The notes beneath the pieces are model-generated. The model saw only the letters and a list, made by a program, of their open reading frames with translations, was not told the origin of the DNA and did no database searches. Of a stretch of DNA of 64,000 nt, positions 12,935 through 34,789 are shown piece by piece. Origin of the DNA: Bryobacterales bacterium (GTDB taxonomy: Bacteria; Acidobacteriota; Terriglobia; Bryobacterales; Bryobacteraceae); contig PMTR01000101.1 in assembly GCA_003167255.1 (NCBI GenBank), positions 6,697 through 70,696 on the forward strand, in the 5' to 3' direction. Numbering within the stretch: position 1 is the stretch's first letter; the number at the start of each line of letters is the position of its first letter. The translations under genes were made by a program, and so were the position numbers.

Positions 12935-13851
12935 TGGACTGATCTTTCCACTCTAACGATGCGACGCACGGCGACCACCAAGAGCATAATCACTAGCAAG
13001 AGTACAGCGGAAAGGGTTGCCCCGAATCTCCAGTCGAGTAATTGATTCATCTGGATGTCAATCAGCATGGAGAAGGTGGTCTGTTCGCGGCCACCGAGCA
13101 ACGCGGGCGTTATGAAATAACCGAACGAAAGGATGAACACTAACGAGCACCCTGCCATCACACCGCTGGCAGTGAGTGGAACGAAGATGCGATAAAACGC
13201 TCTCAGCCGCGTGGCCCCAAGACTGCGAGCCACGACAAGCAATTGCAAATCAATATTCCGCATGCTCGCATACAACACCAAGATCATGTATGGAAGCATT
13301 ATGTAGCTGATGCCGCATATCACTCCATTTAAGTTGTACACGAGTTTGAGCGGATGGTCTATCAGTTTCAGGTTCAGGAGCACCTTGTTCACAATACCCT
13401 CTCTCTGAAGAAGAACCAGCCAGGCATAGCTGCGCACGAGGATGCTTGTCCAAAACGGCAATATGACGACTCCCACCGCCACATTGACCATTCGTTCCGA
13501 GGCTGTCGACATAAAGTACGCAAATGGATAGCCCAAAACCAGACAAACCCCCGTAACGGCCAATGACATTCTCGCAGTCCTGTACATCACGTCGAGATAG
13601 ACGGACTCACGAAAGACGCGAAGGTAGTTGTCCGGCGTAAGCGCGCTTTGGAGGAGGAGAAATACAAGAGGCAGGAAGAAGAAGAGGCAAAGGTATCCGA
13701 GCGCTGGCAGAAGCAATAGCAAGCCGCCGCGAGACTTACGGGCGAACGCGACTGCCGCCGCGGTGCGACGAGACGCGTGGGGCTGAGTTTCGATTGACGG
13801 CAATCGGATCCTCTTCGAAATTAACCCAGTAGCGGCCGACCTGCACTCCAC
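12922..13851 (-). CDS. ABC transporter permease, PotB-like
   Basis: 309 residues, about six membrane segments after a basic, 40-residue cytoplasmic N-terminus. The EAA motif is clear (VARSLGATRLRAF, then FVPLTASG). The reading frame begins with GTG at 13851, nine bases after the binding-protein stop; an internal start near the first membrane segment is possible because the first 35 residues are not typical of permeases. It pairs with the PotC-like gene that overlaps it to make the membrane channel of the importer. Confidence 0.9.
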   Translation of the reverse strand: MECRSAATGLISKRIRLPSIETQPHASRRTAAAVAFARKSRGGLLLLLPALGYLCLFFFLPLVFLLLQSALTPDNYLRVFRESVYLDVMYRTARMSLAVTGVCLVLGYPFAYFMSTASERMVNVAVGVVILPFWTSILVRSYAWLVLLQREGIVNKVLLNLKLIDHPLKLVYNLNGVICGISYIMLPYMILVLYASMRNIDLQLLVVARSLGATRLRAFYRIFVPLTASGVMAGCSLVFILSFGYFITPALLGGREQTTFSMLIDIQMNQLLDWRFGATLSAVLLLVIMLLVVAVRRIVRVERSVQWIQ

Positions 13852-13860
13852 ATCATCGCG

Positions 13861-14943: not shown

Positions 14944-16048
14944 TTGATGCCTCCAAGGGAGTATTGGTTGGCGTCTGTTGCGCGGCCAACACGCGCGTGT
15001 CTTCGATCCGCCAATGAAGGTGCGTTGGCGCGCCTGCCTGCACGCGGGATCTGGCAGGCGTCACGTTTGACTTCCAAACCGTGCCATCGCTCAACGAGAC
15101 GATTGTTTGGAGCGCGCTTCCTAAATACGTCGAATCAACAACGGTCCCAGGAAGATGGTTGGAACCAGCATCGGGAACTCCAACCTGAACTCTCTCTGGA
15201 CGGACCATTAGCGTAACCTGCGTCTCTGGGCGGAGGCCGTCAACAGATGGGACCCGCAATTCGACGTCACCCACTTCCACATTGAGATGGCCGTTGCGGA
15301 TCGAGGTTACCGTTCCCGTCACGAAGTTCGCGCCACCGAGAAAATGGGCCACGAACTCGTCGATCGGCGATTCGTACAACTGGACTGCCGAACCCTCTTG
15401 CGCAACCCGGCCTCGGTTGAGAACAACGATACGGTCAGCGACTTTCATCGCCTCAGACTGGTCATGAGTCACATAGATGATCGTCATGCCCAGGGTTCTG
15501 TGAATGCGCCGGATCTCCTCTTGCATGCGCTCTCGGAGTTCACGATCGAGGGCAGCCAAAGGCTCGTCAAGCAGGAGTACTTCCGGGCTGAAAACCAAGG
15601 CTCTCGCCAGCGCAACCCGCTGTTGTTGGCCCCCGCTCAACTCTGCTGGTCTCTGGCTCTCCAATCCCGCAAGTCCAGTCAGCTCAAACATTCGTACAAC
15701 GCGTTCGTGCAAATCCCGCTGTCCGCATCGATGCATCGGTGTACGCAGCGGAAACGCCACATTCTCATAAGCAGTCATATGCGGAAAGAGCGAGTAGCCC
15801 TGCATGACCAAACCGATGTTACGGCGGTGGATTGGTATGTCCGTAATATCCTTGCCTCGCACGAGCACTCGGCCCCTGGTCGGTGAAATCAAGCCCGCCA
15901 CAGCTTTCAGAACTGTGCTCTTGCCCGATCCGCTTGGCCCGAGAAGTACCTTCAGCTCACCAGGCTCGACCTCGAAGCTGACCTCGTCAAGGGCCGTCGT
16001 GGATGCGTACCGTTTTGCGAGGTTGTCGATCGTCAGGTGCGCAGTCAT
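14933..16048 (-). CDS. ABC transporter ATPase, PotA-like
   Basis: 371 residues from the ATG at 16048; an alternative upstream start at 16075 would add only nine residues that do not fit the family. Walker A is GPSGSGKST (37-45), the Q-loop Gln is Gln83, the signature is LSGGQQQ (138-144), Walker B is LLLDEP (158-163) and the switch histidine is His195. A C-terminal TOBE/OB regulatory part (residues 250-371) is present, as in PotA, FbpC and other importers of this class. It is the first gene of the transporter operon and energises uptake by the two permeases. Only the order ATPase, binding protein, permease, permease is unusual for PotABCD. Confidence 0.92.
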   Translation of the reverse strand: MTAHLTIDNLAKRYASTTALDEVSFEVEPGELKVLLGPSGSGKSTVLKAVAGLISPTRGRVLVRGKDITDIPIHRRNIGLVMQGYSLFPHMTAYENVAFPLRTPMHRCGQRDLHERVVRMFELTGLAGLESQRPAELSGGQQQRVALARALVFSPEVLLLDEPLAALDRELRERMQEEIRRIHRTLGMTIIYVTHDQSEAMKVADRIVVLNRGRVAQEGSAVQLYESPIDEFVAHFLGGANFVTGTVTSIRNGHLNVEVGDVELRVPSVDGLRPETQVTLMVRPERVQVGVPDAGSNHLPGTVVDSTYLGSALQTIVSLSDGTVWKSNVTPARSRVQAGAPTHLHWRIEDTRVLAAQQTPTNTPLEASNEP

Positions 16049-16155
16049 AGTGCAAAGCAGTTTCGGCCATCTCAAGCGCTATCGACGAAGAAGCCAACCC
16101 TCATGGTAAGCCTCTGTGCCGGATTCTCGAAGCCATCTCGAACAATGGGCCTTTG

Positions 16156-18717
16156 TCACCACCCCTCCGGTAGCACTTCGTTCCAATGGTTCGGCAATAC
16201 GTCCAAATGCGTTACGTCTTCCAATTCAGAATGGTAGGTTCGCCATGCTCCTTCCATCATCTGTTGGTCCTGACTTCGACATAGTTCACGGCACCACTTC
16301 CGGAATGAATCGGACACATCGGGGGCTGTCCCAGTGCTGACCGGAGTGTCACCCTCAAAAGCGGCGGCGACCATGAGGTAGTTTTCCCTAGATAGCTCGA
16401 ATATGGCCTCCAACGCCGCTGAGCCGAGCTCACGAACGCACTCGGCCTCTTTGAAGAGTTCCGTGGGGCCACAATTTCTCGGAAACCGCGATGAGCGTGT
16501 GCCCACAAGCATGAGACAATCCCGGAACCTTTGGTGCCGGTCTTCTTCCTGGGGAGATGACAGAGCACATTGAACTACCTCATAAAAGTCCCGGTTGTCT
16601 TCGGCGTTCCGGCTTCCCGATGCAGGGCGAGTCCTTTCGAGTCGGAGCGGGTCCGCTTCCGTAACGCACCAATCGCGCATCCATACTCCACGCTGCGTGA
16701 GGAAATGCCACCAGTGATACTTCAAGTTCGCATCGATCAGCCGTGCGTCCTCCTTGATGACCGCCTTGCCCCTCGCACACCAACGACCGCGCCATGTTTC
16801 CAGAATGTCGGCCAGGCCGGCACCGTTTTGATCGTTGTGCCATGAAATCGTGAACACACGATTCGCAACCGTCCACGCGTCGAGGTCCGTCGCGCTGGCT
16901 GCCTCATAGACGAGCACGTCAGAAAGCTTGGATACCAGTCTATGTTTCGGCAAGACTTTGCTGGGTAATGCCGTGCACGCCCAGATAAGTTCGTCGTCTA
17001 GCACCATTCGCGCCTGACGAGCCGCGTCCCCGTCTAACGTATCAACAAACCGGCCTAGTCTGTCGAGAAAATTCAATTTCTGCAAATGCTCGCTGAATCG
17101 CGGCTCGACACCTCCCTTTTCTGTTTCCGTCTCCATGACAACGGCCCAGTGAAGGAGCGTGGAGTAAGATGCAAGAAGGGCGTCCGCTTCGCTCGGCGGC
17201 AACTCTGCCCATTGCAGAAATGCGGTCCTTAATTCGTCGAGTACCCAACAGATCACTCCCTCGGCCGCCGCGAAACTGAACGCGGGCAATTTGACGACGG
17301 CCCAGCCGACAGCGGAGCAAAATCCCGGATTCCGAACTACTTCCGCACGGAGAGGCAAAGGGAGGTGGCCGGTCAACTCCAACTGGAGAAGGGGATCCGG
17401 GCAGTCGCGTATAAGGTCGATCAGCTCCTGAGGTATGTCCCTCAAATCATGCATTTCGTCATCGAGACCAATCTCACCTGCAACTGCCAGTCCGATGTCG
17501 ATTTGGGACAATGTCAACTCGAGGAGTCCCCGCGCCGCAATTCCAAGCTTGTCGGCGTCAACAACTCGCCGGATAGCGCGGACGGCTGTCTCAACGTTAT
17601 CCGCGCTCCGAAAGTGATGTCGGAGGGCCGCGACGTAAACTTCGTTCGCGACGCGACCAAACTCACCAAGCCCACGTTCGTGCATGACGTACAGGTCTTG
17701 GGACAATGCCCCCGCAACATCTCCGACGCCCAGTGCCCGATAGCCCGTTGGTCCCAGGAAAACAAGACCGGCGGCAAGCTCTAACACGTAGGCGCGAGAG
17801 ATTGCGGACAGCCTTGCTGTATGGTCGCCCCCACCCATCTGTCGTGCCGCCCAGCTCCAGTAATTCACGACGGACGCGAGAGCATCAAACTCGGGCCTAA
17901 ACAAGACCCTGGGCACTCTTGGGTCACTGGCGAAACTCGCCGGCGCAGTCGGTGCTAGGGCTGTCATCTCTGGCAGTCGGTGACCTTGCGCTACAAACTT
18001 CGCATTTCGGCGAAGAATATCATCAAGCTCTGGTCCCTCGAAGCTCCCGCCAATGGACCCGTCCTGGCGTCGGAATAACCCACGAGATAGCCTGAGAGCG
18101 GTACTGGAGCGTATGCGGCGTCCAAGGACGATTTCGGCTGCAGTAAGCAACACCGCGCGGCCCGTTATGATGACCGTGGTTCCTTCTGGCAACCGGTGCC
18201 GAAGGCTCTCTTCGTGACCTCCGTCGACATCGAAGAAAGCGCCCAGACGATTGAGACCCCTCTCATCGCTGGCGAGTTCGCGAAGCGTTACAGTTCCAAA
18301 TAGGTCATCGAGAAGAATCAAGCGTGCAGCGCTAGAATGAACCGTCTGCTCGACCTTTGAAATCGCATCATACACACTCTGCGATGGCCCGACAGCAGGG
18401 AACAGCTTTCGTGAGTCAACCCCACCGTCCCAGGCGAGCAGTGATGGCTGCTCGTCCAGAACCCGCGCAATTGCGGCAATTGCAAACCATGTTTTCCCAA
18501 TTCTTGGGTGGCCATCGATAACTATCAACCGCGTTTGTGAAGGCTGGCAGCCGATTGCCTGAATTGCCATCGGCAGATCTGCGGGGGCTACGAATGTCTC
18601 CTCAAAGTAAGCGACGGGATCAACGGCGACGGGATCACTACCTTGGCCTTCCCGGACTGGAGAAAAGAAGTCTCGGAGAAAGGCCTTGCCCCTTTCCCCT
18701 AACACGAAATTAGTCAT
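16156..18717 (-). CDS. Large STAND-type NTPase, candidate antiviral sensor
   Basis: 853 residues. An N-terminal 60 residues lead into a P-loop NTPase: Walker A GHPRIGKTW (69-77), Walker B LILLDDLFG (133-141) and a sensor stretch VIITGR (182-187). This combination, with Asp-Asp-x-Phe-Gly after Walker B, fits the novel STAND families rather than classical AAA+ or helicases. About 600 residues of mainly helical sequence follow, as in the sensor arrays of STAND proteins that recognise phage products. No obvious effector domain such as a nuclease or protease is fused, so the effector may be a partner protein. It starts in ATGA overlap with the 112-residue gene, which itself overlaps the membrane protein gene. 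STAND proteins are known in defence (Avs); this assignment to defence is inference. Confidence 0.75.
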   Translation of the reverse strand: MTNFVLGERGKAFLRDFFSPVREGQGSDPVAVDPVAYFEETFVAPADLPMAIQAIGCQPSQTRLIVIDGHPRIGKTWFAIAAIARVLDEQPSLLAWDGGVDSRKLFPAVGPSQSVYDAISKVEQTVHSSAARLILLDDLFGTVTLRELASDERGLNRLGAFFDVDGGHEESLRHRLPEGTTVIITGRAVLLTAAEIVLGRRIRSSTALRLSRGLFRRQDGSIGGSFEGPELDDILRRNAKFVAQGHRLPEMTALAPTAPASFASDPRVPRVLFRPEFDALASVVNYWSWAARQMGGGDHTARLSAISRAYVLELAAGLVFLGPTGYRALGVGDVAGALSQDLYVMHERGLGEFGRVANEVYVAALRHHFRSADNVETAVRAIRRVVDADKLGIAARGLLELTLSQIDIGLAVAGEIGLDDEMHDLRDIPQELIDLIRDCPDPLLQLELTGHLPLPLRAEVVRNPGFCSAVGWAVVKLPAFSFAAAEGVICWVLDELRTAFLQWAELPPSEADALLASYSTLLHWAVVMETETEKGGVEPRFSEHLQKLNFLDRLGRFVDTLDGDAARQARMVLDDELIWACTALPSKVLPKHRLVSKLSDVLVYEAASATDLDAWTVANRVFTISWHNDQNGAGLADILETWRGRWCARGKAVIKEDARLIDANLKYHWWHFLTQRGVWMRDWCVTEADPLRLERTRPASGSRNAEDNRDFYEVVQCALSSPQEEDRHQRFRDCLMLVGTRSSRFPRNCGPTELFKEAECVRELGSAALEAIFELSRENYLMVAAAFEGDTPVSTGTAPDVSDSFRKWCRELCRSQDQQMMEGAWRTYHSELEDVTHLDVLPNHWNEVLPEGW

Positions 18718-22444: not shown

Positions 22445-23845
22445 ATGATGGCGTCGACGCATATCGTTCTCACCGTCGGCTTGAGCGAAGTTCCAATTCT
22501 GGTTGCTGCGTATCGCCTATGTTTGCTCTACCTCAAACGGGACGGGGTGCTTCCTTCGTTTTCGGCACTGTGCATTCAAGACACGACCGACGAGGCGGGA
22601 CGCGTTCAGCGTCAATTGATCGCGAAGCTGACAGAGGAGGCATTGTTGCCATCGGGCTGTGTACTCCGATGGACCGCCTTCGTGGTTCCACATTCAAATC
22701 CCCCGGCTATACGCCGAGCCGTAACTAATCTGCTCCGCCTTCAGAGGCCTGGCTCTCACATCCATTTGCACTACACAGGTGGGTCCCGGGCGTTGTCCGT
22801 ACACGCCATGGAAGCGATCGTCTCCGGGGTTGATGCCGCCGGCGAGCGCTACAGCTACGAAGTCAGCTACCTCAGCTCTGGCGAGGATGTTCTGACGTGG
22901 GGGTGCGGAACGGACTTTCAGTTGGGGGATGAGCGGCCAAACTGGTCGCTCGGGATTGCCGAGTTGGCCTCACTCAACGGTTTCACGCCAACCTTTTATT
23001 CGAGCTACTCCCATCAGCACTTCGGCGTTTCCGACCCGGATGAGGATGTGGTGGTGGCGGGAGCGGCGATGGTCCCACTGCTGATCCCTTCTGAGAACCG
23101 CAGGGCCTACGGCAGGTGGCTCGCCGCTACTTGGGATGCATGTTGGAAAACTGGTTCGGATGACAGAGGCTGGCTCCGCTGGCCGCAGCCACCGCCCCGT
23201 GATAACTGGCCGCAGAAAGATCTGCCTTGGATCATGCTCTCTCCGGACGTCGAGTGGAGGGAAATCACCTCGAACCTGGCGCATTGCTTCGGTGGCGATC
23301 CAGTGTGGCGGGTATCCGAAACGGGCATGGCCCTCCGAATTGCGAATCTCAACGAGCAGACCCTACCTAAGCTTCACCAGTTCCTTCACTACCAGTGTCT
23401 GGAGTTGCTCGCCTTCGGCGCTTTGAAAGGGTCGCTCATAGACCTCGGGTATCCCGATTGGGTAGTCCACCAATCTGTGCATTTCGCTCGGCAGGGGGCG
23501 CGCGGCATCCAGCGCCGGGACTTTGAACTAGACGTGGTTGCCGTTCTCGGATACCAGATGCTTGCCGTGTCGTGCTCGCTATCGTCCGACCAACCGTCTC
23601 TGAAGCGCAAGGCTTTCGAAGTTCTTCACCGAGCCAAGCAGATAGGAGGGGATGGCGCGCGGACGCTGCTCATCTGTTCGCTCTCTCCCAGGGACGCGGA
23701 GGGACTCATGCAAGATGTTGAGGAGGACACTGGCCCACGTGAAAGGAACCTCGAGATTTGGGGGGTCGATTCACTGAACTGCCTCGCTGAGCGCTTCCGG
23801 TATTATTTACAAAACAGTCTGGCTGTGCACCCTCGTCTCCCGTAG
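22445..23845 (+). CDS. CARF-domain protein with PD-(D/E)xK nuclease-like C-terminus (Card1/Can2-like)
   Basis: 466 residues. The N-terminal Rossmann-like part begins with LTVGLSEVP, and HLHYTGGSRALSVHAMEAI lies around residues 107-125; the TGGSR (111-115) is at the position of the TGGTK signature of CARF domains that bind cyclic oligoadenylate. The C-terminal part carries Glu320, FELDVVAV (360-367) and AVSCS (374-378), followed by KRKAFEVLHRAKQIGG, the layout of the restriction-like nuclease domain of Card1/Can2 proteins. The usual ECK lysine is replaced by serine at residue 378, so the site may be degenerate or use a nearby lysine. No Cas gene or CRISPR array is in the window. The ribosome site is weak; the second ATG at 22448 is equally possible. 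Confidence 0.75.
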   Translation: MMASTHIVLTVGLSEVPILVAAYRLCLLYLKRDGVLPSFSALCIQDTTDEAGRVQRQLIAKLTEEALLPSGCVLRWTAFVVPHSNPPAIRRAVTNLLRLQRPGSHIHLHYTGGSRALSVHAMEAIVSGVDAAGERYSYEVSYLSSGEDVLTWGCGTDFQLGDERPNWSLGIAELASLNGFTPTFYSSYSHQHFGVSDPDEDVVVAGAAMVPLLIPSENRRAYGRWLAATWDACWKTGSDDRGWLRWPQPPPRDNWPQKDLPWIMLSPDVEWREITSNLAHCFGGDPVWRVSETGMALRIANLNEQTLPKLHQFLHYQCLELLAFGALKGSLIDLGYPDWVVHQSVHFARQGARGIQRRDFELDVVAVLGYQMLAVSCSLSSDQPSLKRKAFEVLHRAKQIGGDGARTLLICSLSPRDAEGLMQDVEEDTGPRERNLEIWGVDSLNCLAERFRYYLQNSLAVHPRLP

Positions 23846-23993: not shown

Positions 23994-24548
23994 TCAGCCC
24001 GGAGTTTGTCCGTGAGGTTTGGCGTCTCGGGGCCGTCGCAGGGCTACGCGCTTGGGAATCGCTTGCTGTTGCAGCCAATACCTAAGCATGGCGCAGTGCC
24101 GGATGACGTCGTCGAGTTCAGCGATAGTCGCCTGCGCCTCCTTCTCTTCCACAATTCCGTCTTCAAGCGTGGCGCAGAGGCTGCCGATGGCCTCAGCAAC
24201 TTCTTTCATGAGGCGATTAACATTGACGGCGCCAGTGCGGTCCGTTGGCTCCGGTTCGGGAATGGGAAACGCCAGCCGCCCCGCCTGTCGTTCGAGGTGG
24301 TCCAGGGCTTCGTAGTTGTTGAGCAACCGACATAGCGGCACAATAAACTCGCTGGGGAAGCGCCGGTCAGCGTTGCCGCCGATCCAGTACATCAGGGAGC
24401 GATAGCCGACTCCCAGATCTCTAGCCAGGAGCCTAAGGTCGGTTTTGCGCTCCGGATCCTCAACAACTCGTCGAATGACGTCTTGTAGGTTGTCCACGAA
24501 TTCTCCCGATATAAGCTCACCGCCCCACGAACGAGCATCGACAATCAT
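23994..24548 (-). CDS. Phage CII-like regulatory protein
   Basis: 184 residues. The segment DLRLLARDLGVGYRSLMYWIGG (about residues 37-58) is a lambda-repressor-type helix-turn-helix, followed by FPSEFIVPLCRLLNNYEALDHLERQAGR, the layout of the phage CII-like (CP76) regulator family. The C-terminal half is an amphipathic helical tail likely to mediate oligomerisation. It is convergent with the CARF gene across a 148-base gap rich in hairpins. Its presence suggests that this part of the island has a prophage origin. Confidence 0.65.
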   Translation of the reverse strand: MIVDARSWGGELISGEFVDNLQDVIRRVVEDPERKTDLRLLARDLGVGYRSLMYWIGGNADRRFPSEFIVPLCRLLNNYEALDHLERQAGRLAFPIPEPEPTDRTGAVNVNRLMKEVAEAIGSLCATLEDGIVEEKEAQATIAELDDVIRHCAMLRYWLQQQAIPKRVALRRPRDAKPHGQTPG

Positions 24549-24635: not shown

Positions 24636-25130
24636 TCAACGCTTACAGGAAGACCTGTAACCAGAGACCATGGACGCGAGTTGACTGATCTCGCCATATG
24701 CCCCAGCCAACTCCGAACTCAACTCCATGATGACTTCCATGAGAGTCGATTCGCGAGCACCGATCCTCCGCCTGCTCGTCAAGGACCCCGGGGGCAATCC
24801 CTCTAGGATGCCGGTGAGCGCTCTGAGTTCCGCTTCGATCTCGGTGATGAGCGTTTCCTTCGGCGTCCCGCCACCGCTGTGGTCGGACGAAAAGGCTGGA
24901 GATTGCCCCAGCGTGCTTGAGCTACAAGCAGCGATTGTCACAAATACCGACTCAGATAGGCGCCGGAGAATGTCGCGAATACTCGGCAGGGAAACCGTGG
25001 GGGAGCGCCAATCAACTTCCTCCTGGCTCAGGGGCTCAACGCAAGCCTTGATCTTGGGCCAGTAGCGATTCAAGAGCGAATCGCTCGATACCCTTATGAA
25101 ATCCCTTCCAACTGGCGAAGCCGGGTCCAT
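24636..25130 (-). CDS. DinB / DUF1572-like protein, partly diverged
   Basis: 164 residues from the ATG at 25130; a longer frame to 25241 adds a cysteine- and arginine-rich stretch that does not look like coding sequence. The helical pattern, LLNRYWPKIKACVEPLSQEEVDWRSP followed by SIRDILRRLSESVF, matches the four-helix DinB-like family (LSEEELWWRP in the DUF1572 consensus as remembered). The usual metal-ligand histidines of DinB are not seen at the expected places, so it may be inactive or divergent. It is isolated, 88 bases from the CII-like gene. Confidence 0.55.
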   Translation of the reverse strand: MDPASPVGRDFIRVSSDSLLNRYWPKIKACVEPLSQEEVDWRSPTVSLPSIRDILRRLSESVFVTIAACSSSTLGQSPAFSSDHSGGGTPKETLITEIEAELRALTGILEGLPPGSLTSRRRIGARESTLMEVIMELSSELAGAYGEISQLASMVSGYRSSCKR

Positions 25131-25307
25131 GCACAAGAATCTAGCACATGCGCGAATGGAGGTGTTCACGCGTGGTGATCTGGTTGAACGGAGAGATCGC
25201 ACGACGCAGATGAATCGACATTGCTGTGCGATTGGCGTCAAATGCTTACTGGGAGGATTAAGGGCCGGAAGTTGAATCCGGGCAACAGACGGACGAGCAC
25301 ATGAGGC

Positions 25308-25360: not shown

Positions 25361-25807
25361 ATGCATGCCAAGGATCGAGCGGTCGCGATCGTCGGAGTCT
25401 TCGTAGCGTTCGCGGCCCTGGTGGGTTGCGACCGGATCGGCGGCAGAACAATTACCGTCGAATTTCGAAATGCCGAAGGTGTTCGCGGTGGCGAGGCTGT
25501 TTACATCGCCGGCGTAAAGGTCGGCCGTGTAACCGACGAGCCTTCCTTGGTGAACGGTCGGGCGCGCGTCTCGGTGCTGATCAGCCGGAAGAACAAGCAC
25601 GGCGTGCCGGCAGGGACCGTATTCCTGCTCAAAGCTGATCCGAGTGAACCAAGCAAGCAGTGCCTGGTTGCGTACTCGTTAGGTTCTGGCCCCGCGCCCC
25701 CGGAAGGCTCCGAAGCGTCCTATGTTGGCGTCAGTAGCCGCGCCGAATTGCTCTTCATGATGAGTGCAGAGAAGGCAACCAAGTTCTGGGAGGGACTGAC
25801 GAAATGA
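25361..25807 (+). CDS. MCE/MlaD-domain lipoprotein, first gene of the tubulin-like operon
   Basis: 148 residues. From the ATG at 25361 the N-terminus is basic, hydrophobic and ends in LVGC, a lipobox-like site, so the mature protein is probably lipid-anchored. The rest carries the single MCE/MlaD pattern: ITVEFRNAEGVRGGEAVYIAGVKVGRV, then an extended strand region and GVPAGTVFLLKADP. MCE proteins bind lipid and form rings that shuttle phospholipids between membranes; this one lacks the long C-terminal helix of the transporters. The gene overlaps the vWA gene by ATGA. Confidence 0.72.
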   Translation: MHAKDRAVAIVGVFVAFAALVGCDRIGGRTITVEFRNAEGVRGGEAVYIAGVKVGRVTDEPSLVNGRARVSVLISRKNKHGVPAGTVFLLKADPSEPSKQCLVAYSLGSGPAPPEGSEASYVGVSSRAELLFMMSAEKATKFWEGLTK

Positions 25808-27117
25808 CCGGCTTCCAGGGAATACAGCAGCGGGCTCTCCTCATCGCTTTGCTTATCATTTGGGTGTGCATAGGCCTGGTGCCGGCCGCCGCGCAAAGTT
25901 CTCCGGCAGAGCCGCCGAAAACGCCCATCGACCTCATCCTCATCGTCGACACGTCGGCGACTATGGTCGGGAAGGCCGGGGGCCAGAACATCTTCCCTGA
26001 TGTGAAAAGGGCGCTTAAAGAGCTCGTGGAGGCGTGCGGACCGGGCGACAACGTTATCCTCATCCCGTACGACGCCGACGTGCGAGCCCGGGCCGCGGCA
26101 GTAATCTACGACAAGCAAGACAAAGCTGCGATGCGCGCAGAGATCGACGCCTTGACCGCGCCCGGACTTTGGACGTACACTGCGGCGGCGATTCAGAAGG
26201 GTCTCGAAGAAGCCAGACGACTTGATGAAGCGCAGGGCGCTGGCAAACACCCGAAAGTCGTCGTCCTGTTGACGGACGGTCTAAATGAGCCACCTCCAGC
26301 GGTTCGAGGGTCGGCCGCCGAGGTTCATCTGGACGACGTCGCCCGCCGGTTTCAAGGCATGCCGTGGTTCGTGTGGCAGGTTCAACTCGGCCCGAAGATT
26401 GACGTCGGGGTAGACGAAGCCTTCCGGGCGGCAGGGTTTCCGAATTACCGACCAGTACGGACGGCGGCCGCGGACCTGAATAAGGTTCGGGCCGACATCT
26501 TGAGTGAAGCCGAGGCCGAAAAGGCGCGCCAAGCTGCGGAGCGAGCGGCCGCGGAGAAGCGGAAGATGGCCGCGCAGCCCGACGAGAACGCACAGAGGAC
26601 AGCGGCAGAAGCGCAGATGCGCCGGCAGGAGGAGGGGAAAAGACGTGCCCAGGCTGCCGCGAAGGAAATGGAGGCTCTCCGACTGCAAGAGGAAGCTTCT
26701 CGCCGCGCGGCACGAGAAAGACAGATTATCGGGGCGGCGGTGCTCGCCGGTTTGGCTGTCGTTGCCGTCGTCATCGTCCTATTACGTCGACGGCCCCAAC
26801 CACACGGAACTCTACAATACTGGAGACCCGGCGAGCCTCCTCGCACATTCGATATCACGTCCGCAGGGAAGAGGCGGCTCCGTGTGGGCCCAACTGCTGG
26901 TGACTTGGTGCTGGCAGGGCTAGGGGACCGGGGGCTAACGCTTAGAGCCGCTCGGGTTGAGGGCCAGGTCCTCTGTGTGATTGAGGCTGACGACGGGGTC
27001 GGCCTTACGTTTCGGGGGAAGCCGGTGAACCGGCTTGAGCTTTATGATCGGGACCAGTTTCAACTGGGCGATCACAGTCTGCAATACGAGGGAGAAGTAG
27101 GTTCGCGAACCGAATGA
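25804..27117 (+). CDS. Secreted/membrane vWA protein with coiled coil, TM and FHA-like C-terminus
   Basis: 437 residues. A signal-like segment (8-30) precedes a von Willebrand A domain with MIDAS residues Asp49, Ser51 and Thr53 (DTSAT), and LLTDG with Asp158. A long alanine/arginine/glutamate-rich coiled coil spans about residues 233-308, then a membrane segment (309-327) with an RRR stop. The last 100 residues are beta-rich (RRLRVGPTAGDLVLAG, LYDRDQFQLGDHSLQYEG), compatible with a cytoplasmic FHA or FHA-like domain; the Arg/Ser phosphothreonine site is not clear. The topology would place the vWA domain outside and the FHA-like domain inside. ATGA overlap with the MCE gene; 37 bases before the tubulin gene. 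Confidence 0.78.
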   Translation: MTGFQGIQQRALLIALLIIWVCIGLVPAAAQSSPAEPPKTPIDLILIVDTSATMVGKAGGQNIFPDVKRALKELVEACGPGDNVILIPYDADVRARAAAVIYDKQDKAAMRAEIDALTAPGLWTYTAAAIQKGLEEARRLDEAQGAGKHPKVVVLLTDGLNEPPPAVRGSAAEVHLDDVARRFQGMPWFVWQVQLGPKIDVGVDEAFRAAGFPNYRPVRTAAADLNKVRADILSEAEAEKARQAAERAAAEKRKMAAQPDENAQRTAAEAQMRRQEEGKRRAQAAAKEMEALRLQEEASRRAARERQIIGAAVLAGLAVVAVVIVLLRRRPQPHGTLQYWRPGEPPRTFDITSAGKRRLRVGPTAGDLVLAGLGDRGLTLRAARVEGQVLCVIEADDGVGLTFRGKPVNRLELYDRDQFQLGDHSLQYEGEVGSRTE

Positions 27118-27154
27118 AGATGGCCGCAACCCGGCCAGAAGAGAGAGACGCGCC

Positions 27155-30100
27155 ATGACGGAAACCACGCAAGGATCTGAAGCAGCGAACATCGACTTGA
27201 CTGAAGGGCTGGAACAGCCGGACGATATCGGGCTCACCGTAGACGTGGACCCTACGAAGTCGGCGACCAAGGCCGGCGATGTCACCGGAGTCCAGTTCCG
27301 GCCCGCAGTGTTGGTCGGCCTTGGCGGCACCGGAGTCGGGTGCGTCCGCCGTGCCAAGCAGAAGATCCTGAACCGAGTCGGGAAACTTCCCACCGTGGCC
27401 TACGTCTGCGTTGACGCGGACGAAGCTTCATTCCTTAATGCTCCGGGCATGGCGACTGTCGAACAGAACGAACGGTGTTTCATCGGCGGTGATCAACTCC
27501 AACCTCTGCTTGACCAGCCAGAAGCCCATCGCTGGCTGCTCGACCAAATTCCCGGCAAACTAGCGGCTGGGCACTACGAAAAGGCTGTGAAAGGGGATGG
27601 TTGCGGCCAGGTGCGCACGGTTGGACGCGTAGCCCTCCTGGCTTCGATGTTGAATGTCAAGACGGCGTTCACTACCGCTTTGAACCGCGTCGAACGCCTG
27701 GTCTCCGGTTTGAGTACAAAACTGAAGGCCGCCGGTCAGACGGCGACCGTGGTAGCCGACCCAGTCGTCTATATCGTCTGTTCGCTCGCCGGCGGAACCG
27801 GCAGCGGAGCCTATCTGGACGCCGCCCTCCTAGCTCGAACTCTGACCAAGCACCGCGCCAAGATGGTGGGGATTTTCGTGCTGCCGGACGCATTCGACGA
27901 AAAGGTCCAGGGCGACGAGTCGCAGCTGAGGATTATGCGCGCTAATGCGTACGCGGCGTTGATGGAACTGCAGGCGCTTCAGGATATGCGTGATGACCTC
28001 GGTCTCGAAGCAGTGATCAGTGCCGATGGGGAAACGCTGTCGCTCCCAGCGGGCCGCCAGCTTTTCGACCTCTGCTACCTGATTGATTACAAGAACGAAA
28101 GCCACAAGACCTTCTCCCAAACCGAGGATGTCTATGAACTGGTGGCGCGCTTGCTGCTTCACGAGAATGCCACTCAGTTCAGCGTCAATGCCCACAGTGT
28201 CGAACGTAACCTGAACACCCTGAGGGGTGTCGCTCGTTGCCCAGAAACAGGGTTGCCCAGAAACTTCAGCACGTTTGCCAATACTCGACTGGGTTTTCCC
28301 ATCGAGGCGGTTACGCGCTTTTGCGCGTGGTCAACTCTCCGTGAGTTGGTTGAGAACGACCTCCTTAAGACCACTTTGTCCCCTGCGAAGCGAGCCGAAG
28401 AGGCGCAGACTTTCCTGACAACGCACGAACTGGACGAGCAGGGACCTACCGATCAGGTGCTGAATCGCTTGCTGCAGCATCCTCAAAAACGGACGCCGAT
28501 GAGTGAGGGTACTGAGGGTGTCGGCCGGACCTTCGGAAAGGACAAATCGCCGCGTGAATTCGTGACGCTGATCGGGCAAAAGCTTGACACATTCAAGAAG
28601 AGTCTGCCGGTTGCGGAGTCGATCGTCACGGACAACTTGGCCTTCTATCTCGGCAAGCCGACCGGCACGGAGTACCCGGTTAGGAATTGGCTCGACAGTT
28701 ACTTGAACGATTGCATCGCGAAGCTGGGAACGCGCGGCGCGGCTGCGGTACTGGAAGAACTGGTCGTACGGACGACTGCTCTCAGAGGCGAGATGATCAG
28801 CGAGAATCGGCTCTGGGCGGATACGGAAAGCAAGGCCCGAACCGGCGCCATGGATAGAGCCCTGAGCGCCTTGTCTGGGATGAGCCGAGTCAAGGCTATG
28901 GTTAGCAGTAAGGACGACACGCTAAAGGGAGAGGCGATCGGAGCCTTCCAGGCCATCGTTCGCGACGAACTGCGGACCGTCGCACGCAACGCAGCAATAA
29001 AAGTGTTCGACGGGCTGATTTCTCTCGCGAGCTCTCGGAAGCAAACCGTGGATACCTTCGTTTCTACGTGTGAGACGTTGAGCAGAACTGTCAACAGCAG
29101 CTTGAATACGCTCCGAGTGGAACGGCGGCGGGAGACGGCGAACTTCGTTGTCGAAATGGACGTCACCGACCGGGGCTTCTTGGAGGAGTACTATCAAGCG
29201 AACCGCGTCGCCCCTTCGCGGCTACTGAAGGCGGCCAAAGACGCTGCTGGCAGCGACGCGCCTTACTATATGCGGCTGCTGCCCATGAAAACGGAGGGCC
29301 TAGTCAAGGAGTTCGGCCAAAGGGCTGCTGATCTTTACTTCCCGAAGATCAAGAGCCTCAGCGTCGTAGAGCACATTTCCTCCAGAGCCGACGAGCGCGG
29401 CTCCTTGGCGGTGAAACTGGGCGAACTGTTTGACATGTGCCAGCCGTTCTGGAACACCAGGCTGCCGCAGGTCAATATGCAATACGACCAGTTCATTGCA
29501 CTAGGCTGTGTGCCGCAAGCATCTGATACGGGTGGTGCTGGCGGTTTTCCCCAGGAGGTGCGTCAGTGGGCACAGCGTTACACGAAAGCCATCCGAGGCG
29601 GTGTGGCCGCGCCGGCAAACCTCGTCGCGACGACGGCTCCATACGAGATCGAATTGGTCCGCTACACGCATGGCGCCCGTGCGTGGTATCTGAGCGACGC
29701 AGCGGACTGGAAAGAGAAGTTCGAGCAGACAGTGAAACAGAAGGCCTTCCCGTTGCTCTTGAGCAAGGGGTTGTCCGATATCCCCGATCTTTTCCCCGAC
29801 AAGAAGAAGATCTCGCGGCAGTCCTTTGCTCTCGCCATGGCGTTCGGCTTCGTCGCGAAGCGTGGGGACTACTATTATATGAACCTGGATGGCGGCCAAG
29901 CCGAGGTCGATGGCGCCTATCAGGTGCCTATGGATACGGAATGGCAGACAGTTTTTGGTCCACCCACCGATCGGAAGATCTCTGACGATACGGGCCCCAT
30001 CACCTTCCTGTTCAAGAAGAGAAAGCCGAAGGAGTCACTCTTGCTCGCCCAAGGTCGTACCCAAGCGTGTTCGAAGCTCGGTCAGGATCCGAAGAAGGTC

Positions 30101-30274
30101 GAAGCCATCCTTACCGCCCTGTCCGAATACGTCAAGGCCGTCGGCTCGGCTGCGGTCAAGGCGCAACTCTCCGCGTATGAGGCATTCCTCGATGATTTCG
30201 AGGCCGACAAGCTGCGCGATCAGATCGAACTGGAACGCGATTCCATCAAGGACTACCGGAAGAACCTCGAGTAA
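27155..30274 (+). CDS. Tubulin/FtsZ-like GTPase family protein (Tubulin_2-type)
   Basis: 1039 residues. The N-terminal GTPase part has VLVGLGGTGVG (53-62) and CSLAGGTGSGAY (209-220); the latter corresponds to the tubulin/FtsZ nucleotide loop GGGTG-[ST]-G. This arrangement, at this length, marks the large tubulin-like family (Tubulin_2) that is distinct from FtsZ. After about residue 400 the chain is helical, with repeated charged helices that may mediate filament contacts. No membrane segment or signal was seen, so the protein is cytoplasmic. It has an AGAGAGA ribosome site. Polymerisation is likely by family but cannot be shown from sequence alone. Confidence 0.82.
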   Translation: MTETTQGSEAANIDLTEGLEQPDDIGLTVDVDPTKSATKAGDVTGVQFRPAVLVGLGGTGVGCVRRAKQKILNRVGKLPTVAYVCVDADEASFLNAPGMATVEQNERCFIGGDQLQPLLDQPEAHRWLLDQIPGKLAAGHYEKAVKGDGCGQVRTVGRVALLASMLNVKTAFTTALNRVERLVSGLSTKLKAAGQTATVVADPVVYIVCSLAGGTGSGAYLDAALLARTLTKHRAKMVGIFVLPDAFDEKVQGDESQLRIMRANAYAALMELQALQDMRDDLGLEAVISADGETLSLPAGRQLFDLCYLIDYKNESHKTFSQTEDVYELVARLLLHENATQFSVNAHSVERNLNTLRGVARCPETGLPRNFSTFANTRLGFPIEAVTRFCAWSTLRELVENDLLKTTLSPAKRAEEAQTFLTTHELDEQGPTDQVLNRLLQHPQKRTPMSEGTEGVGRTFGKDKSPREFVTLIGQKLDTFKKSLPVAESIVTDNLAFYLGKPTGTEYPVRNWLDSYLNDCIAKLGTRGAAAVLEELVVRTTALRGEMISENRLWADTESKARTGAMDRALSALSGMSRVKAMVSSKDDTLKGEAIGAFQAIVRDELRTVARNAAIKVFDGLISLASSRKQTVDTFVSTCETLSRTVNSSLNTLRVERRRETANFVVEMDVTDRGFLEEYYQANRVAPSRLLKAAKDAAGSDAPYYMRLLPMKTEGLVKEFGQRAADLYFPKIKSLSVVEHISSRADERGSLAVKLGELFDMCQPFWNTRLPQVNMQYDQFIALGCVPQASDTGGAGGFPQEVRQWAQRYTKAIRGGVAAPANLVATTAPYEIELVRYTHGARAWYLSDAADWKEKFEQTVKQKAFPLLLSKGLSDIPDLFPDKKKISRQSFALAMAFGFVAKRGDYYYMNLDGGQAEVDGAYQVPMDTEWQTVFGPPTDRKISDDTGPITFLFKKRKPKESLLLAQGRTQACSKLGQDPKKVEAILTALSEYVKAVGSAAVKAQLSAYEAFLDDFEADKLRDQIELERDSIKDYRKNLE

Positions 30275-30298
30275 CGGGTCGCCGGAGGGGAACTTCAA

Positions 30299-32389
30299 AT
30301 GATCGGTGCTGATGACTTATCATCACCTCCCTCAGCACGTGTGGCCAATCTCACGCTTGCGGTGGGGATCGGTGCGCTGGGCGAACAGGTGATCGCTGAA
30401 CTCAGAAAGCTCTTGGTGACCTCGGAAGATGGCCACCGATGGGCGGTAGCCTCCTGGTGTAGCGCGGACCAAGGGACCCACGCAGCTGAGGCGGCGGCCC
30501 TGCTACTCTCAAACAGAAACCTGGACACCCTCGAACAGGCAGGCTATCAGGTGCCGGGCAGGGACGTCGGCCAACCTCCACGTCTGAGCGTGGCATACAT
30601 CGTGGACCTGAATGACCAAGGGTCGAGCCAATCCGTGGATACGGTCCGCAAGGATTTGGAGTCGGTGTGTGTGCCCACTACGCAATCGATCATAGCCGCC
30701 GGCGCGGGTCAGATCGCCGAGATCCTTGCCAGTGACACCGTTGCTAGGTACAAGTGGGATTTTGTGGTGCCGATTTCCTCGCAGGACCGGGTCGCTGGTG
30801 CGAGGGCACAGATCGACATTGTTGCGACGGTCGCGAGGATTGTCTTTGTTTTCTCAGTTGCCGATCAACCTCACTTCGGCTCGAGGGTGTTGGGGCGGAC
30901 CGCTACGCCAGCAGTGCCGGGCACACCTGTTGTGAGAATCGGCGGTGCCTTCTTGGATAGTGGGCGCGGCGAATTGCTAATGTCCCTTTCGGGGTTCGTG
31001 GCCTGCGGACTGCTGGGGCGGCAATTTGAGAACCTAGCAAGTTTTCAGCCGGCTGGCGCTTTCGACGATCAGCGGCGAACCAAACTTCTGGACCTCGTCG
31101 GTGCCGAGGTGTTAGGGCGTCGGCTGTTGGGCGATACTCCATTCGAGCTCCGTATCGACGATGGCGGAGTCTGGCATGTCGAACTACCCCGTGGGATTGT
31201 GGCCGCAGAACTCCATCGCGTACCGCGACGTCGTTGGATAGCCGTCCTCCAGAAGCTCCGTGACCTGTTCGATTTCACCAAAGCCCGACGATGGGCGGAG
31301 TCTGTCGAGCGCTCAGAGGCCGCAATGCTGTCCTCTATTCAAGAAGCGATCACGGAGGACATACGGCAGTTGCACCACTACGAACGTGGGCCTGACAGGC
31401 TGCTCTCCTGGGCGTCTGCGGCCCGAGATCTGCTCGAAGTGCAACCTGAGATCGTGCGGCCCGCGAATGCTGACATCGACGCCGCCATTGGGAGACTCCG
31501 CGCGGAGGTTCTAAGGTCTCCCAATTCGATAGCAGTCTGGGTCCGCGTGGTGCTTCTGGGCTGTATTGGCGCAGAGGGAATCAGGCATATCTTCCGAGCC
31601 CTGTTCGGGGACATGATCGGGTGGCTAGGATTCACATCCACGCTGATAGTCGCGGCAATCTTAGGCTTCCGTTTACTCGAGCGCGCGCACCAGGATCTCC
31701 ATTCGGCTCTCAAAACTGCCCAGGAAGCGCTCATCCGTCGATATGAGGCTCAAATGAGGGAGAATCTGAGTCTCGTGCTGACCCGGGTGCGAAGTCGGCT
31801 CATGGCCCTCCTCGACAATGAGATCAGCAAGGTCCAGAACCAGGTGCAGTGCGCCTCAGACATCACCGGATCGATGATCGGAGAGTTTGGGGGCACGACC
31901 GCTACCGACTTGGTCAACGTGGAGTGGATCGTTCCAGCGGAATCCAGACAGAGGTTGCTGGAGTCCCTCAACCTGCCATGGTCGACATTGCAGCGCCAGG
32001 CGGCAGCTAACGGAGTGTTCGTGCCTGATCCTCCTGAGGGCACAGAATGCATAAGGCAAACGGTCGCCGCGGCAGTTGACTTCTCTATGCAGTACCTTCA
32101 GTCGCGATTAGACGATTTCGGGCTCCAGGGATTGATGGAGTTCCGATGCAACGAAGACCTCGGATTCGAGGACAGAATCGTCCGGGACCTTGATCGCAGA
32201 TCGACCGCGCTCGCTGGCCGGGCTCCACTCCGGACATCCTGGCACGGCCCAGCCGATGTTCTCACTCAACTTCACGACAAGATCGTTACGCTCGATCCGG
32301 ATGCGGTAGAGCAGCCATCTGTTTCCGGAATGGTGGCTTGCCTCAAAGTGGGCGGAAGCGTCACCGTTCTGCCAGGAGACCCCAAATGA
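30299..32389 (+). CDS. Membrane-anchored tubulin-like partner protein
   Basis: 696 residues with a GGAGGGG ribosome site. The N-terminus (VANLTLAVGIGALGEQVI) aligns in position with the VGLGGTG region of the neighbouring tubulin-like GTPase, but GGTG is changed to GALG and the GGTGSG loop is not evident, so nucleotide binding is doubtful. Two hydrophobic stretches lie around residues 409-460 (AVWVRVVLLGCIGAEGI and ITS-like STLIVAAILGF), followed by a helical, coiled-coil-like region to about 530. It could be a membrane anchor or a non-hydrolysing subunit for the preceding filament protein. The stop overlaps the next start by ATGA. The homology to the tubulin-like protein is inferred from the N-terminal motif and operon position. 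Confidence 0.68.
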   Translation: MIGADDLSSPPSARVANLTLAVGIGALGEQVIAELRKLLVTSEDGHRWAVASWCSADQGTHAAEAAALLLSNRNLDTLEQAGYQVPGRDVGQPPRLSVAYIVDLNDQGSSQSVDTVRKDLESVCVPTTQSIIAAGAGQIAEILASDTVARYKWDFVVPISSQDRVAGARAQIDIVATVARIVFVFSVADQPHFGSRVLGRTATPAVPGTPVVRIGGAFLDSGRGELLMSLSGFVACGLLGRQFENLASFQPAGAFDDQRRTKLLDLVGAEVLGRRLLGDTPFELRIDDGGVWHVELPRGIVAAELHRVPRRRWIAVLQKLRDLFDFTKARRWAESVERSEAAMLSSIQEAITEDIRQLHHYERGPDRLLSWASAARDLLEVQPEIVRPANADIDAAIGRLRAEVLRSPNSIAVWVRVVLLGCIGAEGIRHIFRALFGDMIGWLGFTSTLIVAAILGFRLLERAHQDLHSALKTAQEALIRRYEAQMRENLSLVLTRVRSRLMALLDNEISKVQNQVQCASDITGSMIGEFGGTTATDLVNVEWIVPAESRQRLLESLNLPWSTLQRQAAANGVFVPDPPEGTECIRQTVAAAVDFSMQYLQSRLDDFGLQGLMEFRCNEDLGFEDRIVRDLDRRSTALAGRAPLRTSWHGPADVLTQLHDKIVTLDPDAVEQPSVSGMVACLKVGGSVTVLPGDPK

Positions 32390-33570
32390 GATTCGCCCGT
32401 GTCTCGGCAGCGTTTATACTCCTCTGTGCAATCCTTAGTCCGGCGAAGCACTTGGTTCGCTATCTTGGTGGAGCGCCCGGAACAGAAGCCGGCGTTTTCG
32501 AATCTCTACTCCGCGGGTTGCTTTACTTGGCGCTGTTGCTCATTCTCTATTCAGTGCTGACCGTTGTTTTTTGGTTAGTCCGCCGTCTACTGGTATTTGC
32601 TGACGAATGGGAGAGTGTCGGTTTCGCAGATCTTGATGTTGGGGTGCACGGGCTGTGGCCTTACCAGTGGTTCCTGGTGGCTGGAATCATACTGCTGATA
32701 GGTGCGGCATTTGACAGTCACGGGCAATGGACAAGTTCAATCGTGGAGGCACTTGGGGCGGCCGTCGCGATTCTGGCGGGACTCCTGGGTCCGCCGCCGG
32801 GCCCAAATCCTATTGATGACTACGACCCGCTTCCGCTCCCGATGCCTGCTCCACCAAAACCAGTCCCAGAGCCGTCACCAGGGCCCGAGCCACCCTCGCC
32901 ATCAGATGTCATTCCGTTGACCATGTCGTGGTTCTTCCGAAAGGAACCTGGAACTCTTGATGCGCCAGCGATGAGCTACGAAGTGTCCATCGACGCCTCG
33001 AAATCCAGGTACGAAACGCTTCTGGCCAAGGAGCACGGCGTCAGAGCTGTCGGTGACTATGGACGATTTGTTCGAGATGGCCTTACACCAGAAGTCTGCG
33101 AAACGGCTTCCCAGATAAGGAGGATATCCGAGAAGGATCGACTTGGCACAATCTTGGAAATCAATAATGTACTCGCGTTCGCCCAGCGATTCAGCTATGC
33201 CCTCGACAGTGAGGACAAGGGCGTGCCCGAATACCCAAAATATCCCCTGGAGACAATGGTCGAAGACCGCGGCGACTGCGAAGATCACGCAATCGTTGCA
33301 GCAGCGTGTCTGGTGCGGCTAGGCTACGATGTGCGTCTGGTTTCACTGGAGTACGGCTCGGGACCTGGTCACATGGCGCTCGCCGTCGCCGGCGCAGAGG
33401 AACTACCGGATGCATTCGCACTTCGCGACCCAGTGTCCGGTCGGAAATTCTACTATTGCGAAGCGACTACCGATGCCGGCTCGCGCAATCCGAATGCTGC
33501 GGCATTCCGGATGGGTGAGGTTCCTGATCGCGATCGCAGTGCCAAAATGGAGCTCGTTTCGGTCGTCTGA
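32386..33570 (+). CDS. Membrane protein with transglutaminase-like domain
   Basis: 394 residues from the ATG at 32386 (overlapping the previous stop). An N-terminal signal or membrane segment is followed by two or three further hydrophobic segments (LLYLALLLILYSVLTVVFWLV; WFLVAGIILLIGAAF; ALGAAVAILAGLLG), then a proline-rich linker (residues 140-170, PLPLPMPAPP and similar). The C-terminal 200 residues are transglutaminase-like: Cys298 in GDCEDH, His329 in GPGHMALAV and Glu359 in YYCEAT. Such domains act as proteases or cross-linking enzymes in the periplasm. It is the last gene of the operon and presumably the enzyme of the system. Confidence 0.8.
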   Translation: MRFARVSAAFILLCAILSPAKHLVRYLGGAPGTEAGVFESLLRGLLYLALLLILYSVLTVVFWLVRRLLVFADEWESVGFADLDVGVHGLWPYQWFLVAGIILLIGAAFDSHGQWTSSIVEALGAAVAILAGLLGPPPGPNPIDDYDPLPLPMPAPPKPVPEPSPGPEPPSPSDVIPLTMSWFFRKEPGTLDAPAMSYEVSIDASKSRYETLLAKEHGVRAVGDYGRFVRDGLTPEVCETASQIRRISEKDRLGTILEINNVLAFAQRFSYALDSEDKGVPEYPKYPLETMVEDRGDCEDHAIVAAACLVRLGYDVRLVSLEYGSGPGHMALAVAGAEELPDAFALRDPVSGRKFYYCEATTDAGSRNPNAAAFRMGEVPDRDRSAKMELVSVV

Positions 33571-34124: not shown

Positions 34125-34349
34125 ATGCGGACGACCCTGGAACTCGACGACGATCTCGTCACCACCGCCAAGCAGTTGGCCCGGCAACAAGGGGTGACGC
34201 TCGGGCGGGTCATCTCGGAACTGGCCCGGAAGTCGCTCGAGGCCAAGGCACGCCCCAGGGTGCGCAATGGGGTTCCACTTTTCGAACCAATTCCTGGCGC
34301 TCCCAGAGCTGATCTTGAGCTGGTAAACCGATTGCGAGACGAGGATTGA
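34125..34349 (+). CDS. VapB-like antitoxin with ribbon-helix-helix start
   Basis: 74 residues. The first 45 residues (MRTTLELDDDLVTTAKQLA, then GVTLGRVISELARKSL) are the strand-helix-helix of MetJ/Arc-type antitoxins. The C-terminal tail (PLFEPIPGAPRADLELVNRLRDED) is the usual extended toxin-neutralising segment. The next gene starts in a TTGA overlap, the normal arrangement of antitoxin then toxin, and a palindrome lies upstream. Confidence 0.88.
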   Translation: MRTTLELDDDLVTTAKQLARQQGVTLGRVISELARKSLEAKARPRVRNGVPLFEPIPGAPRADLELVNRLRDED

Positions 34350-34789
34350 GTATCGCCCTTTTGGACGTGAATGTCCTGATAGCTCTCTTCGATCCTGGCC
34401 ACATCAATTACGAAGAGGCACACCACTGGTTGGGCCGGAACCGAAAACACGGTTGGGCGACATGCCCGATGACGATCAACGGTTGTATCCGCATCCTGAG
34501 TAGTCCCGCCTATCACGCGGTGGAAGCGACTCCTTCCGAAGCGGCCGACCATCTGCGCAGATTTTGCTCCGTCACGGACCATCATTTCTGGGAGGATTCC
34601 GTGTTTCTCCTGGATGAGTCGTTATTCCGGCTGTCGATGATCCGCGGACACAAGCTTCTCACGGATGCGTATCTGCTTGGCCTGGCAGTTCGGAATCACG
34701 GACGGCTCGTCACGTTCGACCGGTCCATTCCTTTGAAGGCAGTGCACGGCGCCGGTCCCGGAAGTCTCGTCTTGATCGGAAGCGTGTGA
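34346..34789 (+). CDS. VapC-like PIN-domain ribonuclease toxin
   Basis: 147 residues beginning at the TTG in TTGA overlap with the antitoxin stop. The PIN domain motifs are present: LLDVNVLIALFD (Asp7), an internal acidic position, and LLTDAYLLGLAV followed by RLVTFDRS at the C-terminal end, giving the acidic metal site of VapC. VapC enzymes cut RNA, often tRNA, when antitoxin is lost. Together with its antitoxin it may stabilise the adjacent island. Confidence 0.9.
   Translation: MSIALLDVNVLIALFDPGHINYEEAHHWLGRNRKHGWATCPMTINGCIRILSSPAYHAVEATPSEAADHLRRFCSVTDHHFWEDSVFLLDESLFRLSMIRGHKLLTDAYLLGLAVRNHGRLVTFDRSIPLKAVHGAGPGSLVLIGSV

Follow-up and report, generated by a model that had tools for sequence, protein, structure and literature searches.

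A five-gene acidobacterial cassette pairing an FtsZl1-type tubulin GTPase with a degenerate, membrane-anchored relative, and its possible role in envelope-based defence

Introduction

Tubulin-like proteins of the FtsZl1 family (Pfam Tubulin_2) are widespread, and the literature that we found assigns no function to them. What such a protein does when it is encoded among envelope proteins is the question raised by the locus described here. The window, a stretch of 64,000 nucleotides, belongs to the 7.35 Mb genome of an acidobacterial soil bacterium (Bryobacterales bacterium, contig PMTR01000101.1), and the system in question is a cassette at positions 25361–33570, which encodes an MCE-domain lipoprotein, a von Willebrand factor A (vWA) protein, an FtsZl1 GTPase, a membrane-anchored partner of this GTPase and a transglutaminase-like membrane protein. 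A preliminary description of the window proposed a candidate for an undescribed envelope system built on tubulin-like GTPases. Sequence comparison and structure prediction establish the parts of the cassette, the predicted fold of its GTPase, the homology of the partner, the mobility of the cassette and its linkage to defence genes, and a function is proposed on this basis. The partner's loss of GTP-binding motifs, the mobility and the linkage were not part of the preliminary description.

Part of this gene set has precedents. The main text of Makarova and Koonin (2010, PMC2875224) associates FtsZl1 with vWA proteins, protein kinases, a P-loop GTPase and OmpA proteins, and reports that the family shows no resemblance to the C-terminal domains of FtsZ. 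Kaur et al. (2020, PMC7159879) described conflict systems combining tubulin, vWA and a GAP1-N2 GTPase, with two tubulin genes in Firmicutes. A study of 2023 excluded Tubulin_2, judging it too divergent (PMC9871819).

Organization and conservation of the cassette

The five open reading frames (ORFs) lie on one strand in the order of Table 1, as first described, with ATGA overlaps at the junctions of the MCE and vWA genes (25804) and of the partner and transglutaminase-like genes (32386), and with gaps of 37 bp between the vWA and tubulin genes and 24 bp between the tubulin and partner genes. The ATG at 32386 is preferred as the start of the transglutaminase-like gene. The five are genuine genes that are conserved as a set and evolve under purifying selection: they are collinear in two other species, at 57–86% amino-acid identity to the window, and their ratios of nonsynonymous to synonymous polymorphism (pN/pS) are 0.12–0.37 (0.23–0.31 for the MCE gene). 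A promoter scan of the cassette gave scores no better than those of shuffled sequences, and searches for repeats bounding the cassette, for tRNAs and for one common CRISPR-repeat motif found none.

The FtsZl1 GTPase

The 1039-residue protein was described at first as a tubulin-like GTPase, and this assignment holds: it matches PF13809 at 3e-50 (171.9 bits, cut-off 27), and its T1 (GLGGTG, residues 55–60) and T4 (GGTGSG, residues 213–218) loops are near invariant across 44 sequences from the window and the fetched loci. An AlphaFold2 model built from these sequences has a mean predicted local distance difference test score (pLDDT) of 79 and a predicted template modelling score (pTM) of 0.71. 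In VIA-align it matched CetZ1 over 311 of 330 residues (Z 26.8), and FtsZ and tubulin with Z of about 23; the matches span model residues 48–881, and Foldseek assigns the model to the same family.

A tubulin fold had been expected over residues 50–400, and the model extends it: residues 49–861 are predicted to form a complete tubulin/FtsZ-type fold, in which T1 and T4 are intact. The C-terminal tubulin domain would itself be present, split by a helical insertion (~404–775, about 370 residues). From the order of elements in the model, S7 would correspond to residues 371–380, H9 to 383–403, S8 to 778–785, H10 to 800–812 and S9/S10 to 822–841; the match length, by contrast, is an observation. On its motifs, the protein is taken as an active-type tubulin GTPase. 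A canonical FtsZ is encoded elsewhere in the genome, so the cassette tubulin is not the division protein, and its complete predicted fold makes head-to-tail polymerisation plausible.

The window genome (G000) encodes a second, distant FtsZl1 (G000:C19:18728-19780, locus L016); a vWA-like protein is encoded upstream of it, and a radical-SAM-like gene lies downstream. Directly upstream of this FtsZl1/vWA locus, at L016:3-6219, lies a close relative (84% over half) of a two-gene phage-tail-like module of the window (Table 1). Apart from these two, no full copy of the module was found in this genome, and another relative occurs on contig C172 of genome G207.

The degenerate partner

The 696-residue partner gave no significant match in Pfam or NCBIfam. 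When the three orthologues and five counterparts from Armatimonadota were combined in a profile and compared by hhalign with 88 FtsZl1 sequences, a match was obtained over residues ~188–541 with a P value of 3.5e-10; a second pair of alignments gave 6.6e-8. The T1 region of the partner matches that of FtsZl1 separately and in order (P 7e-5), and the profile score of 93 compares with at most 22 in 20 column-shuffled controls. Overall identity is about 10%, and helices make up much of the match; this helical half carries less weight than the T1 and S6–S7 regions, because shuffling loses helix periodicity.

In the partner, T1 is reduced to GIGALG (GLGGTG in the GTPase), the T4 glycines are absent, and hydropathy places a transmembrane hairpin at ~410–457, inside the helical region. 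The partner is accordingly described as a putative degenerate relative of the FtsZl1 family, in which the GTP-binding loops appear lost and a membrane hairpin gained. Of the two tubulin-like proteins first proposed, the second is therefore retained as a relative of FtsZl1 and is unlikely to be a GTPase, since its GTP-binding motifs are lost.

Such partners recur outside the cassette. At about 30 further loci in Chloroflexota, Armatimonadota and Acidobacteriota, the gene directly 3' of FtsZl1 matches the FtsZl1 profile (P<1e-4), and the best-scoring genes near FtsZl1 are almost all directly downstream ones; the independent cases are fewer than the loci, since many Chloroflexota loci come from one family. 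The Chloroflexota partners also lack T4, and those examined carry a mid-protein hydrophobic hairpin (most of them) or a single transmembrane segment. A three-gene version in Armatimonadota (L034–L040) consists of a secreted Ig-like/transmembrane adaptor of ~410 amino acids, FtsZl1 and a degenerate partner of ~690 amino acids, without vWA, MCE or transglutaminase-like genes. The loci tested from Cyanobacteria and Ignavibacteria showed no downstream degenerate partner.

That the partner is unrelated to tubulin, and that its profile match reflects shared helical composition only, is very improbable: a poor AlphaFold2 model (pLDDT 40, from 8 aligned sequences), which counts against our assignment, the low identity and the largely helical match would all agree with it, but it leaves unexplained the ordered T1 match, the S6–S7 region, which is non-helical and matches in single sequences, the low scores of the shuffled controls, and the placement of almost all of the best-scoring neighbours directly downstream of FtsZl1. 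The complete fold predicted for the GTPase and the conserved degenerate membrane partner make the FtsZl1 family testable, with the partner as a natural co-expression target.

The MCE, vWA and transglutaminase-like proteins

The first gene encodes an MCE-domain lipoprotein, as the preliminary description had it, with one short MCE domain behind the lipobox LVGC (residues 20–23). An Asp is found at position +2, which is an inner-membrane retention signal in enteric bacteria, and CD(R) is kept in all three species. None of the five cassette genes matched an MlaE-type permease or MlaF-type ATPase in Pfam or NCBIfam, and the cassette's own MCE profile detected no MCE gene beside other FtsZl1 genes.

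The vWA protein presents a signal peptide (residues 11–29), a metal ion-dependent adhesion site (DTSAT, 49–53), a coiled coil (~230–305), a transmembrane segment (308–326) and a soluble tail of ~105 amino acids. These features fit the layout from cytoplasm to outside that had been suggested; the vWA side is predicted to face outward and to be joined to the cytoplasm via the single transmembrane helix. The same early account gave this protein an FHA-like part. It was dropped, the tail having no FHA match in Pfam and no hhalign match to the C-termini of the Armatimonadota adaptors; the vWA domain, coiled coil and transmembrane segment were retained.

The last protein was called a membrane transglutaminase-like protein, and the name is kept. 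Its Pfam matches are weak (Transglut_core 0.0017, below threshold, and Peptidase_C93), and it has a conserved Cys/His/Glu set and the motifs GDCED, GHMAL and YCEAT, which are kept in the three orthologues and show small changes in the distant homologue at locus L025. The protein, of cysteine-protease-fold type, has about four N-terminal transmembrane helices and a Pro-rich linker.

Distribution and horizontal transfer

The full cassette occurs in 3 of 399 genomes of the class, representing three species and two families, all acidobacterial. Beside the window genome, these are G207 (locus L032), a Ca. Sulfopaludibacter of the same family, and G396 (locus L031), an uncultured member of the Acidobacteriaceae, another family. 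No further full cassette was found in 237 genomes of the family, in a phylum sample of 396, among the best 80 loci of a contig scan of ~85,000 GTDB species, or on the viral contigs searched. Phages and plasmids gave partial FtsZl1 matches only (<31% identity), and two IMG/VR contigs classed as viral (L118 and L119) carry FtsZl1 relatives at 25–37% identity. Matches of an iterated vWA profile in Chloroflexota were considered as orthologues and left uncounted, as they share the vWA domain only. A looser relative, L025 (genome G299), encodes FtsZl1, a 719-amino-acid partner with two transmembrane segments and a 33%-identical transglutaminase-like protein, followed by a NACHT/TPR (STAND) protein.

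Identities of the window genome follow taxonomy for canonical FtsZ (70% to G207, 58% to G396) and for HemW (67% and 50%). The order is reversed for the cassette tubulin (77% to G207, 86% to G396) and the partner (57% and 69%), which indicates that the cassette moved between families; horizontal transfer is the simplest reading of these values. The CARF gene treated below shows the same reversal, with 49% identity to G207 and 74% to G396. The window and G396 have in common a block of ~22 kb, which also holds the gene of a large protein that matches nSTAND3 weakly (L114:987-3440 in the corresponding locus), an ABC transporter cassette, polyamine-uptake-like by eye, and cystathionine-synthase-type genes.

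Defence-gene neighbourhood

A gene for a CARF nuclease lies 1.5 kb upstream of the cassette and matches the PADLOC models Csx1 (3e-37) and CARF4--CARF_PDDEXK (3e-32). Full-length relatives (at least 49% identity) are present in exactly the three cassette genomes among 399 of the class, and in exactly the two cassette genomes among 237 of the family; the chance of the family-level co-occurrence is about 1 in 28,000, if both acquisitions were independent. The distance to the cassette ranges from about 2 to 19 kb over the three loci, the largest value being that of G207. The regulator gene and the small ORF between the CARF gene and the cassette (Table 1) are both retained in G396 by blastn/tblastx synteny.

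In G207, the genes drmD-drmMI-drmA-drmB-drmC of a complete DISARM system adjoin the cassette, drmC ending 87 bp from its last gene. On the other side, within ~25 kb, there are an RtcR-CARF gene, the CARF nuclease and weaker E1-type matches. The run between the cassette and the nuclease (L112:1848-10896) consists of large genes mostly without a PADLOC match, the RtcR-type CARF-AAA-HTH regulator being the exception; two of them also have no Pfam match. Over the flanks, 9 of 61 ORFs had PADLOC matches at ≤1e-20, and none of the 92 control ORFs had one; in this comparison the flanking genes are clustered and not independent, the controls are arbitrary regions of the same genomes picked by hand, and ABC-type 'mad3' matches were dropped from both sets. 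The mad2/mad3 (MADS) matches of the window were rejected as an artefact: mad3 falls on an ABC-transporter ATPase and is also hit in a control region.

Compact Cas10-like proteins (~480 amino acids) are encoded on contigs other than those of the cassette in the window genome (C28, L133:1153-2610) and in G207 (C57, L134:811-2235), the latter beside a RAMP-like gene; both the Cas10 and the RAMP assignments were made by eye, and the Cas10 palm model is not specific, since it also gives hits in E. coli. No Cas10-like gene was found in G396. The cyclic nucleotide that signals to the CARF nuclease might come from these proteins. Downstream of the cassette, the window encodes a PIN-domain protein, possibly a toxin, for which no antitoxin was identified.

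Table 1. Features of the window considered in this work
Feature	Coordinates	Strand	Evidence
MCE/MlaD-domain lipoprotein, 148 aa	25361..25807	+	Pfam MlaD 8.2e-9, lipobox
vWA protein, 437 aa	25804..27117	+	Pfam VWA 1.7e-11, hydropathy, orthologue alignment
FtsZl1/Tubulin_2 GTPase, 1039 aa	27155..30274	+	PF13809 3e-50, AlphaFold2, motifs
Putative degenerate membrane-anchored FtsZl1-like partner, 696 aa	30299..32389	+	hhalign, shuffle control, hydropathy
Membrane transglutaminase-like protein, 394 aa	32386..33570	+	Weak Pfam, conserved motifs, ATGA overlap
CARF4-PD-(D/E)XK nuclease, 466 aa, Csx1/Card1-like	22445..23845	+	PADLOC
Phage CII-like (CP76) regulator, between CARF gene and cassette	23994..24548	-	Pfam PF06892 1.8e-7
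Small ORF	24636..25241	-	Pfam DinB_2 0.33, not significant, marginal resemblance at most
PIN-domain protein	34346..34789		2.3e-6
ABC transporter cassette	12086..16075		
Large protein	16156..18717		Weak nSTAND3 match
Two-gene phage-tail-like module	2179..8524		Non-contractile tail sheath TIM barrel 6.7e-7, phage tail repeat 4.6e-15

Proposed function

The cassette may be a cytoskeletal, envelope-based defence system, because it moves between families and sits among phage-defence genes. We propose, giving this an even chance, that it is a membrane-anchored tubulin-pair system which detects envelope attack and responds to it, carried as a mobile defence (conflict) module. This inferred role is favoured over ordinary envelope maintenance, and what is left of our confidence goes to passenger status or to roles not foreseen here.

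In the mechanism proposed, the MCE and vWA proteins, with binding domains that face outward, would sense a damaged or phage-perturbed membrane, and the signal would pass through the transmembrane helix and cytoplasmic tail of the vWA protein to the GTPase. GTP-bound FtsZl1 would then assemble on the inner membrane, the partner being its fixed membrane anchor as well as a capping or co-assembly subunit. This assembly might reshape or seal the membrane, or kill the infected cell. The transglutaminase-like protease would process one component of the pathway, and the CARF nuclease would act separately, as a second-line effector.

Several points weigh against a defensive role. MCE proteins usually act in lipid transport, a housekeeping task. 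The full cassette is known from three loci only, which amount to about two independent observations, because two of them share the ~22-kb syntenic block. The five genes themselves have no PADLOC match besides a marginal one to LeoBC (0.041). FtsZl1 loci generally have vWA and ordinary metabolic neighbours and no obvious defence genes, so that the linkage to defence is specific to the cassette variant and L025. The CARF gene has its own position, with genes between it and the cassette, and both it and DISARM could merely share a mobile island with the cassette.

The strongest alternative is envelope maintenance or membrane remodelling unrelated to phages, in which a filament would organise lipid and envelope via the MCE and vWA proteins; the MCE/MlaD domain, lipobox, vWA domain and transmembrane segments agree with it, as do the vWA neighbours of the wider family, and membrane remodelling was proposed in the 2010 paper (PMC2875224). 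We consider it unlikely, though a serious competitor, since a rare and mobile cassette, linked to CARF and DISARM, with no MCE permease found in it and no MCE gene detected beside other FtsZl1 genes, is not what it predicts.

A further alternative holds that the cassette and the CARF and DISARM genes are unrelated passengers of one mobile island, their co-occurrence saying nothing on function. The mixed content of the block common to the window and G396 (the STAND-like gene, ABC transporter and cystathionine-synthase-type genes) and the 19 kb that separate CARF gene and cassette in G207 are in its favour. We regard it as rather improbable, because G207 keeps the 49%-identical CARF gene while the rest of the block was not seen beside the cassette there, and because the co-occurrence is exact in both the class and the family genomes.

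Returning to the defence proposal, a wider and more speculative version, which we hold as doubtful, is that FtsZl1 systems are two-subunit machines, made of a live GTPase and a nucleotide-free, membrane-inserted pseudo-tubulin anchor, and that the acidobacterial one senses the envelope, acts against phages and is coupled to the CARF nuclease. If the defence linkage is true, the cell envelope and a tubulin-type filament join the ways in which bacteria resist phages; if the coupling of tubulin pair and CARF nuclease is also true, this would be a cytoskeletal arm of bacterial immunity.

Comparison with known systems

The CARF gene matches models of the type III CRISPR CARF-PD-(D/E)XK effectors (Csx1/Card1/Can2-like) but does not lie beside recognised cas genes. 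With MlaD/MCE lipid transport the cassette shares one MCE domain behind a lipobox; the domain is single and short, and MlaE/MlaF-type partners do not accompany it. Alpha/beta-tubulin, BtubA/B and archaeal FtsZ1/FtsZ2 also present two tubulin-superfamily proteins as a pair, an analogy only: the cassette partner has lost both nucleotide loops and carries a transmembrane hairpin.

The GAP1-N2 systems (PMC7159879) are closer, with tubulin-domain proteins containing a coiled coil, an extracellular vWA protein with a transmembrane segment, two tubulin genes in the Firmicutes versions, and an assembly near the membrane predicted to act in conflict. In the cassette, Pfam, NCBIfam and PADLOC gave no GAP1-N2 TRAFAC GTPase among the five genes, and no FNIII protein was recognised; MCE and transglutaminase-like genes are found instead, and the second tubulin is putatively degenerate and membrane-anchored.

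The FtsZl1/vWA operons of 2010 (PMC2875224) share with the cassette the PF13809 GTPase, its long helical region, an adjacent vWA gene and membrane proteins in the operon. The main text of that paper mentions no MCE, transglutaminase-like protein or degenerate partner; for the cassette GTPase, the model predicts a complete fold that a helical insertion interrupts. A search of open-access full texts found no paper in which tubulin-like, MCE and transglutaminase-like genes stand together, and none that describes an MCE, transglutaminase-like or degenerate-partner component (the supplementary lists of further associated families in the 2010 work lay outside this search). The preliminary claim of an undescribed system is thus narrowed: the FtsZl1 and vWA core was published in 2010 and tubulin/vWA conflict systems in 2020, and what is new is the full five-gene set, in which this core is joined by an MCE lipoprotein, a transglutaminase-like protein and a pseudo-tubulin partner.

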